Source of the DNA: Daphnia pulex
Lineage: Eukaryota; Arthropoda; Branchiopoda; Diplostraca; Daphniidae
Reading direction: 5' to 3'
NCBI RefSeq assembly: GCF_021134715.1
Contig: NC_060028.1
Coordinates: 7,710,501 to 7,774,500 of the forward strand
DNA: 64,000 nt
Shown: piece after piece, positions 48,121 to 50,507 of the stretch
Numbering within the stretch: position 1 is the stretch's first letter
How the letters are laid out: the number at the start of each line of letters is the position of its first letter
Program-made: the position numbers and the translations under genes
The notes under the pieces: model-generated
Databases searched by the model: none
Told to the model about the DNA's origin: nothing
Seen by the model: only the letters and a program-made list of their open reading frames with translations

Positions 48121-50507
48121 TTAACCAACAATACCAACTGAGGATACTGCAACGTGTTCCTTCTTGCAATCCATATGACTGATAGCGTCACATACAGCTA
48201 AGCCGTCACATACAAAACCAAATACTGTTGAGGTACGGCTGTGCTCAACCTTATCTTCTCCTAAACGGACACAAAAATCTGTAGCTACAATGCTACACTG
48301 GGACTTCATGAAATCGCGCTTGAGCCTAAAGAATACAGCACCTCGTATTTTCTTCAACGGAGACGCATCTGCCATGTACAGTGTTTCGGGTCCCGGTACT
48401 CTGCCACCCATTATGTACGTCTTTGGTTTAGCCTGTACATTTGCGAAAAAAAAATTTTATTAACTAATTTGACGGGTCATTTTAAAAGGAGTGTTGATTA
48501 CATCGTAAATGATAGTCCCTTGATACGAGACTGCGCTTTTCGCCAGACAACTTGCGACGAATCTCTGGCACATAACCGGGGCAACACTAAAATACAAATC
48601 AGACAATAATTTTAAAAAATGTTCTATGCTTTCAACTGGAGTAATACTTACTCTGGTCGAAGTTCAATTACGACACTACCGTATTCTTTACCGTTGACGG
48701 CTAGAACAAAGAAGGCCTTTTTATTGAAAAGCGGCTGTATCGGTATAGATGGGACGAGACAAGTATTCCCATGTGGTTTTTCCGTGCGGCGAACTGAATT
48801 TCGGGATACAGAATCATCTTGCTTGGGAGGACGAACATTTGGCTGCAGTTTCCTAATAGGTTTCTCTACGGGATGACTGGAATCATGATTTCGAACAAAA
48901 TTGGACGTTTTTGCTTCTGGCAACGAGTTTCGTTCTCCCCTGCCATTTCTTCCAGTTGATTGGTTCTTTGATTTACTTGATTCAGCTTCGGTTCTAGCCA
49001 CTGGCGGATTCTTTCTTTCTTTCGATGCGATTTCCGCCTTGTTCGTATTCTTCTTTAGTTCCTGATCGGTACAGTGGGCAGAGTTAGTCCGTTGTCCGTC
49101 TTGGTTACCAGATAGGGCCAAAAAGGCCAGAGTAGTTAAAAGGTATGAATCGTAACTGCTGGCAGCTTCCGAAGGAAAATTGATCAGAGCTGAATCAAAA
49201 AGAGGGGCGGCAAACTTTTCTCCCTTGGAAGTCTTAATATCCATAGAGACAACGGCGTTTTTCAAAGAAGAAAAAGCGGCCAACTTATTCCTATCAAAAT
49301 CGTAATTTTTTTTTTTAGTATGAAACATAATACGTATACATGCATGATCACAGCAAGAAATAGTTACCCAGTTTTAACGGCCTTGGCTTTCGATTCAACA
49401 ATTAATTTATTATACAACTGAAATAAATTGTGAAGTTTTTCGGAAGTTCGTTGCTGGTCATTCAGGTGAACGGCTACTTCCTGCATTGAAATGTAAATGA
49501 TGTAAATAATATATCATCTTTGGTATGATCTTTAAATTCAATGAAGCGAACCGATAAAGTATTTGCAAGTTTTTCCATTTGCCAATCATTTTTTTTTCGT
49601 CGATTACGTATTTGTTGCTCTAAGGCTTGAAGTGCAGTCTCAGCGGCCTTCAAAGCCGAATCGGCCTATTAGAAGAATTTTTAGTTGAACCGGTAAATTC
49701 CTAGATGAATAATAACATTAACCTCTTGATGTTTGCTAAGCGCACCATTCCACTGACTCTTGCACGTGACTAACAGCGTCTTAAGGTGTATCTCAGCTAT
49801 TTCTCTCCCATCTTCAGTGTCCAAATTATAGGTTTCGTGATTCTCAGGATGACTATCTGCTCCTTTTTTAAAAGTCACGTAGCAAGAAGAACACCAATAA
49901 TAGCTGCCTGTCTCAACTTTTTCATTTGATGACCTTAGAGAAATCGCAATAATTTTCTTTACTAAATTCGTTGGAAAAATTGTAATGAGTACATACCCGA
50001 TAGCTGACGAAGCGCTTGGGTCCTTCATTTGATCTAATATGTAGAAATTTGTCTTGAGCGCTTCATCCAGCGATTGCGAGTTGACGTTAGTAGCTTCTAA
50101 GCAAGTTGGACAATTTATGACTGTTTTTGTCTTCTGGTGCTTCTAGATAGAAATAATCACATCGTTAATTACTATAAACGCTACGTTTTTAAGTAAAACG
50201 CTTTGCAGCAATATCTTAATTGTTAACAAGGATAATTATTATTGGATTTGAGGTTTATAAAATAGAGATGATCTGTGTGCTGTGGGATTTTAAGCAAATC
50301 ACCATATTAAAAAAAAACCAAAACTTTTTTAGCTACGACAATCATACAAAAAAAAATAGGCTGAATTCAAACACTTTGAGTAAATTAATATTTTGTACTT
50401 ACTTGTAGGCATTCAAGGCAGAATGAATGGAAGCACATTAAAAATTTGGGCCTCCGTTTCATAAAATCATAATCTTGAAGGCATAAATCACATTTTGATG
50501 TTGTCAT
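48121..50507 (-). CDS. TRIM-like RING/coiled-coil protein with cyclophilin-like C-terminus
   Basis: Probable E3 ubiquitin ligase. Exons (minus): 50507-50403, 50142-49997, 49933-49723, 49665-49552, 49480-49368, 49290-48652, 48586-48502 and 48432-48121; 1725 nt, 574 aa, in frame. A C3HC4 RING is at residues 6-49 (C6, C9, C25, H27, C30, C33, C46, C49). A partial B-box-like segment is at about 97-116 (WCSSCYVTFKKGADSHPENH). A coiled coil follows at about 120-230 (ALKAAETALQALEQQIRNRR). A Ser/Lys-rich linker spans about 231-415. The last ~158 residues resemble cyclophilin: FFVLAVNGKEYGSVVIELRP, VAPVMCQRFVASCLAKSAVS, then VFGFVCDGLAVCDAI. The isomerase signature is missing: the FHRI segment (Arg55 of CypA) is IYDA and the QFFI/TAKT segment is altered, so the domain is probably a binding module. 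The overall plan resembles TRIM proteins, in particular primate TRIM-Cyp, but it must have arisen separately. Confidence 0.85.

Follow-up and report, generated by a model that had tools for sequence, protein, structure and literature searches.

A RING gene of Daphnia pulex with a cyclophilin-like domain that lacks the active-site residues, one of a family of nine loci

Can a cyclophilin fold that has lost its active site still be kept as part of a RING protein? This question is raised by a gene in a 64,000-nucleotide stretch of the Daphnia pulex genome (NC_060028.1, positions 7,710,501 to 7,774,500; hereafter the window). A preliminary description had proposed a single reading frame of eight exons, which encodes a C3HC4 RING at the N-terminus, a degenerate B-box and a coiled coil in the middle, and a cyclophilin-like fold at the C-terminus.

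The reading frame holds up. Joined on the minus strand, the eight exons (Table 1) give 574 amino acids and a stop codon without a break in frame, and all seven introns are bounded by GT and AG. Five of the seven donors start with GTA. The other two (after 49723 and 49552) start with GTT and are weak by consensus. Spliced alignment reproduces identical exons; since the query was the window protein itself, this is a consistency check only. When the DNA of the gene is compared with the genome, one similar stretch is found besides the gene itself, 94 bases in the paralogue on contig C8.

Table 1. Parts of the window gene (positions in the window) and related loci (contig and position in the genome).
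Feature	Position	Strand	Content or basis
Coding region	48121..50507	-	8 exons, 574 aa; splice sites and frame; pN/pS against two paralogues
Exon 1: RING ligands 1-6 (C6, C9, C25, H27, C30, C33)	50403..50507	-	sequence; zf-RING_UBOX 9.1e-6
Exon 2: final RING cysteines C46 and C49, then Leu50	49997..50142	-	sequence
Exon 3	49723..49933	-	GT..AG introns, frame
Half B-box remnant in exon 3 (C98, C101, H112, H116)	49837..49893	-	without Pfam zf-B_box match
Exon 4	49552..49665	-	GT..AG introns, frame
Exon 5	49368..49480	-	GT..AG introns, frame
Proline-free putative coiled coil, residues about 121-230, exons 3-5	49368..49824	-	heptad test
Exon 6	48652..49290	-	GT..AG introns, frame
Middle segment, residues 231-290, exon 6	49110..49289	-	pN/pS 0.50 (window-C6), 0.38 (window-C8), 0.30 (C6-C8)
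Fast-changing linker, residues 291-415, exon 6	48735..49109	-	pN/pS 0.81 (window-C6), 0.80 (window-C8), 0.64 (C6-C8)
Cyclophilin-like domain, part 1, end of exon 6, from residue 420	48652..48722	-	Pfam, alignment, profiles
Cyclophilin-like domain, exon 7, ending at the catalytic Arg55 position (Asp)	48502..48586	-	phase-0 intron there
Cyclophilin-like domain, exon 8 and stop	48121..48432	-	sequence, active-site alignment
Family locus	C6:2.77 Mb		full plan; RING over Pfam cut-off
Family locus	C8:12.92 Mb		no RING found
Family locus	C7:1.13 Mb		RING over Pfam cut-off
Family locus L055 (C11:2.06 Mb)	C11:2061296-2063000		RING and two tandem cyclophilin-like domains
Family loci L051/L029	C7:11655493-11661265		RING/half B-box/cyclophilin-like genes at 11.656 and 11.660 Mb, head-to-head
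Family locus	C6:6.70 Mb		cyclophilin-like domain, preceded by no more than a cysteine cluster (by eye)
Family locus	C7:4.66 Mb		one open frame, 534 codons; B-box, no RING model match

At the N-terminus all eight ligands of a C3HC4 RING are present (C6-C9-C25-H27-C30-C33-C46-C49). The Pfam model zf-RING_UBOX passes with 26.0 bits against a cut-off of 25.2, and the remaining Pfam RING models all stay under their cut-offs on this protein. The RING of the preliminary description is hence confirmed. In active TRIM RINGs, the residue directly after the last RING cysteine is usually Arg. It is Leu50 in the window gene, Ala in the paralogue on contig C6 (2.77 Mb) and Arg in four other relatives. With Leu50 in place of the usual Arg, the ligase activity of the window gene may be weak.

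Less is left of the B-box. The RING is followed by the pattern W-C-x2-C...H-x3-H, in which about four of eight zinc ligands are kept, judged by eye against the B-box that the C7:4.66 Mb relative carries. Pfam zf-B_box has no match in the window protein, and none of the 15 matches that it gives across the genome lies at the window gene. Membership among TRIM proteins calls for at least one B-box; Pfam recognizes none in the window protein, and four ligand-like residues remain. Hence, what had been described as a degenerate B-box is one half of a B-box. For the coil region behind it the signal is modest: the heptad excess is equalled by nine of 200 shuffles in the window protein, by eight of 200 in the C8 paralogue and by 40 of 200 in the C6 paralogue.

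The evidence for a cyclophilin-like domain is stronger when the relatives of the gene are included. In the window protein, Pro_isomerase matches residues 428-570 with 38 bits (cut-off 21.7, E 2.6e-9) and is covered from position 6 to 152 of 159. Compared singly with solved cyclophilins, the window domain gives a weak match to the first third (best 1.3e-5). A profile built from the ten domains of its family matches cyclophilins of known structure over the full length (best E 5e-20), and a profile-profile comparison with five of the genome's ordinary cyclophilin domains yields a probability of 99% (E 4.8e-18). Pro_isomerase itself is matched by all ten family domains at E values of up to 1, the best being 3.8e-16. 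These profile matches rule out a chance resemblance, and because of them we infer that the C-terminal domain folds into a cyclophilin barrel, as had been suggested. Over the whole domain the window gene is 67% identical to the C6 paralogue and 70% identical to the C8 paralogue. It was also correctly noted that three exons (6, 7 and 8) encode the domain, which rules out a retrocopy.

The isomerase residues of cyclophilins are, in CypA numbering, Arg55, Phe60, Met61, Gln63, Phe113, Trp121 and His126. At these positions the window domain has D, T, Y, M, C, V and S. The ten domains of the family were aligned with MAFFT to 11 ordinary cyclophilin domains from the same genome; the alignment is less sure from column 101 on. 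In none of the 12 active-site columns compared does the window domain carry the canonical residue. The loss of isomerase residues that the preliminary description reported is therefore complete. It is also not peculiar to the window gene: R55, F60, M61, Q63, F113, L122 and H126 are each missing from all ten family domains, and where the alignment is uncertain, A101, N102 and W121 occur in one family domain each and Q111 in two. Among the ordinary domains, F60, Q63, N102, Q111, F113 and L122 are kept in all 11, R55, A101 and H126 in 10, M61 in nine and W121 in five.

Judged by its residues, the window domain is probably enzymatically inactive. Of the isomerase positions listed above, 55, 60, 61, 113 and 121 are also named in a study of human cyclophilins (PMC2911226). 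According to the same study, PPIL2, PPIL6 and SDCCAG10, in which position 121 is neither Trp nor His, showed no cyclosporin binding and no activity on the test peptide; PPIL2 and SDCCAG10 still bound the test peptide. The authors suggest that such inactive cyclophilin domains may still bind proline (PMC2911226).

Has the dead domain been maintained by selection? We compared the window gene with the paralogues on C6 and C8, and these two with each other. Because synonymous sites are at or close to saturation, we report rough pN/pS ratios, with bootstrap intervals. For the cyclophilin-like domain pN/pS is 0.23 (0.17-0.29) between window and C6, 0.20 (0.14-0.25) between window and C8 and 0.23 (0.17-0.33) between C6 and C8, in each pair the lowest value of the main segments. 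The coil region has 0.46, 0.27 and 0.45 in the same order of pairs; between window and C6 the RING has 0.31 (0.17-0.47) and the half B-box region 0.56 (middle segment and linker in Table 1). In some comparisons the domain's interval runs into those of RING and coil, and the claim that it is the most constrained segment is secure against the linker alone. The low ratios make it likely that the domain functions and unlikely that it is decaying; the dead domain is, in other words, probably functional. Among these three genes, moreover, the evolution of the domain does not look like an arms race.

We searched the whole genome (133,188,837 bases in 13 contigs) and found a family of nine loci with ten cyclophilin-like domains of this kind. 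The yield depends on the query. All nine loci are retrieved with either of the domains at C7:1.13 Mb and C7:11.656 Mb as query, and seven with the window protein. A search of single exons with Pfam Pro_isomerase fails to detect the window gene and the members on C8 and C11. The domain at C7:4.66 Mb retrieves itself, four ordinary cyclophilins and only then two family members, so its membership rests on the tree described below. Gene models differ in how they were made. For C8 we used only the exons from 12921294 on and took seven short upstream pieces as artefacts; for the C6 paralogue we used the continuous linker frame rather than the extra small intron of the spliced alignment. The cyclophilin-like models of the other loci were built with query peptides assembled by hand out of translated pieces, so that their exon joins, bounded by GT and AG, were made partly by reading.

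A RING is present at six of the nine loci and a B-box is kept at one. The RING exceeds the Pfam cut-off at five loci (window, C6:2.77, C7:11.660, C7:1.13 and C11), and at C7:11.656 Mb it was recognized by reading and tblastn. The protein submitted to Pfam for this last locus, on the C7 minus strand, was joined incompletely, its middle piece missing, so its absent RING score is meaningless. No RING match was obtained at C8, C7:4.66 Mb and C6:6.70 Mb, and on C8 none was found back to 12,918,000, which is 3.2 kb ahead of the first exon. Some members thus keep the C-terminal half without a RING. The one B-box, at C7:4.66 Mb, scores 27.0 bits in the genome search and 21.6 in the protein search (cut-off 24.1). 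At five other loci (C6, C7 three times, C11) a domain of the same kind lies no more than 3 kb downstream of a RING exon, with both in the same orientation. Both domains of the tandem member on C11 lack the active-site residues, and the two genes of the head-to-head pair, about 0.9 kb apart, have diverged strongly from one another.

Several other RING genes were considered as candidates for the family and set aside. In the one at C4:4.15 Mb two B-boxes score above the cut-off and the tail reads by eye as NHL-type repeats, and C5:10.67 Mb reads by eye as a RING/SH3 gene. At C7:577 kb, C8:6.34 Mb and C2:4.72 Mb no cyclophilin-like domain was seen by eye in 2.2-3.7 kb of one strand, and a scan of viral contigs with exon 8 confirmed no viral relative.

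Three clusters, at C7:283-370 kb (17), C7:577-610 kb (10) and C8:6321-6343 kb (7), hold 34 RING matches to the N-terminal end of the window protein, most of which span residues 5 to about 40. At one place sampled in each of the latter two clusters (L052 and L053) no cyclophilin-like domain was seen by eye. One further locus (L054, C7:7668500-7670800, minus strand) resembles the window gene in its RING, half B-box and coil-like region, and no cyclophilin-like domain was seen in the 2.3 kb read. It may show a state before or after the presence of that domain. Lastly, about 0.9 kb downstream of the member at C6:6.70 Mb lies a frame that by eye resembles a hAT-type transposase (L025, C6:6699088 onward).

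Where does the family come from? In a maximum-likelihood tree of 21 domains (165 of 210 columns), the ten family domains lie on one side of a branch with a support of 100/100, apart from the 11 ordinary ones. Tree and active-site table exclude L018, whose model misplaced an intron (the open frame reads FHRVIRNFMIQG); L031, L032 and the minus strand of L025 gave no usable domain and were likewise left out. The B-box member at C7:4.66 Mb adjoins the ordinary domains, and the grouping of the other nine, supported by 82/49, is not firm. Four family domains are very divergent, with end branches of 1.09-1.78. With an unconverged bootstrap and two long end branches, the order inside the family is unsure. 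The introns provide a second character. With positions taken from the gene models, a phase-0 intron follows directly after the codon at the place of the catalytic Arg55 in nine of the ten family domains, C7:4.66 Mb being the one without it; 10 of 12 ordinary domains have no intron within four codons of this site (L004, with spurious first exons, is uninterpretable here, and the intron of L018 is probably an artefact of the model). The simplest reading is one origin followed by duplication. The likely ancestor would have been a gene with B-box, coil and cyclophilin like that at C7:4.66 Mb, which later duplicated and diverged.

What could the protein do? We think it rather probable that the window gene is a real and functional gene of the TRIM-cyclophilin plan, and that its product acts as a TRIM-like RING ligase whose dead cyclophilin fold docks the target. 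In this scheme an E2 enzyme would be brought in by the RING, and two chains would be held as a dimer through the half B-box together with the coil region. The C-terminal fold, no longer isomerizing proline, would serve as the docking surface that chooses the target. That the window protein is a ubiquitin ligase is a prediction from its domains.

One could also argue that the RING is dead or dispensable. The protein would then be a scaffold or adaptor, maintained for its ability to bind by way of its coil region and its cyclophilin fold. Leu50 fits this idea, and so does the C8 paralogue, in which the domain is equally constrained (0.20 against the window gene) with no RING found upstream. Against it, all eight ligands of the RING are intact and the RING is constrained against the C6 paralogue. 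We consider a pure scaffold unlikely, if the most serious competitor of a ligase.

A defence protein in the manner of primate TRIM-Cyp is a poorer candidate. Here the dead cyclophilin would bind capsids or parasite proteins, and the family would have grown under conflict. The similar plan, the spread to nine loci with four very divergent domains, the head-to-head pair on C7 and the double-domain member on C11 could all be expected from such a history. Selection on the domain among the three closest genes is purifying, however, not diversifying. TRIM-Cyp binds the capsid via the active-site surface of CypA, and exactly this surface is gone in the window domain. On balance we find the defence explanation improbable.

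Very improbable is that a RING gene and an adjacent degenerate cyclophilin gene were wrongly joined. The objection is weakened because the RING-then-domain order recurs, with the same strand, at five other loci on three contigs, and one exon (49290-48652) runs from the middle segment into the cyclophilin domain. The claim that a single gene combines RING and cyclophilin-like fold is accordingly supported. A decaying pseudogene, to which the lost active site might point, can be practically dismissed given the selection on the domain and a frame that is open over eight exons.

The family invites a broader, and in our view doubtful, speculation. In a crustacean lineage, an ancestral B-box/cyclophilin gene may have given rise to diversified RING receptors that recognize their targets by enzyme-dead cyclophilin folds, in one case by two in tandem. 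This would be a repertoire for targeted ubiquitination without immunoglobulin or B30.2 domains, perhaps directed against proteins of parasites or transposons.

How does the window gene compare with known systems? In arthropods, a 2008 survey described a tripartite motif and a cyclophilin domain in the Drosophila gene CG5071 and called this convergent with primate TRIM5-CypA (PMC2533329). In a 2011 survey of Drosophila RING proteins, CG5071 is not among the four TRIM proteins and is named in a figure legend on exonized transposon pieces (PMC3166285); it is also mentioned in PMC6829134. Compared by its published description, CG5071 shares the combination of parts with our family. Its plan is approached more closely by the B-box member at C7:4.66 Mb than by the window gene, though that member has no RING match.

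The order of RING, B-box, coiled coil and cyclophilin is likewise that of primate TRIM5-CypA and of the TrimCyp fusions reported in rodents (PMC6677749). Primate TRIM5-CypA arose when a copy of CypA was retrotransposed into the TRIM5 locus (PMC3137616). In the window gene, by contrast, introns interrupt the cyclophilin-like domain, its active site is gone and it belongs to a family, and half of the B-box is lost. Instead of being a CypA retrocopy inside TRIM5, the window gene groups with its own family, and kinship with primate TRIM-Cyp is not supported. Of the idea that it is an independent gene of the TRIM-Cyp plan, the similar plan and the absence of retrocopying stand; it is one of nine loci rather than a single case, CG5071 had been reported in 2008, and the B-box is only a half.

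Zebrafish ftr52 resembles the window gene in that a TRIM gene is followed by a multi-exon cyclophilin domain, and differs in that CypA with a Ran-binding domain takes the place of the B30.2 domain of other fintrims; a predicted stop codon was noted in its RING region (PMC3137616). PPIL2 also couples a ubiquitin-pathway domain to a cyclophilin, which in one study neither acted as an isomerase nor bound cyclosporin (PMC2911226). Its ubiquitin-pathway domain is a U-box and not a RING, and mainly Trp121 is altered (to Tyr), a single change restoring activity (PMC2911226), whereas in the window domain the whole active-site set is gone.

With CG5071, ftr52 and the primate and rodent fusions on record, the plan of RING or tripartite motif plus cyclophilin is already known, arthropods included. 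Among open-licence PMC papers, we found no report of an expanded, enzyme-dead RING/cyclophilin family in Daphnia. As far as we have searched, then, three things are new: the expansion of the family, a domain that has lost its active site and is nevertheless constrained, and the member with two such domains. Tripartite-type modules joined to cyclophilins have been reported in primates, rodents, a fish and a fly; in Daphnia the cyclophilin appears dead yet is well conserved, at nine loci. The family hence allows a direct test of whether a cyclophilin fold can act as the target-binding module of a ubiquitin ligase without isomerizing proline.
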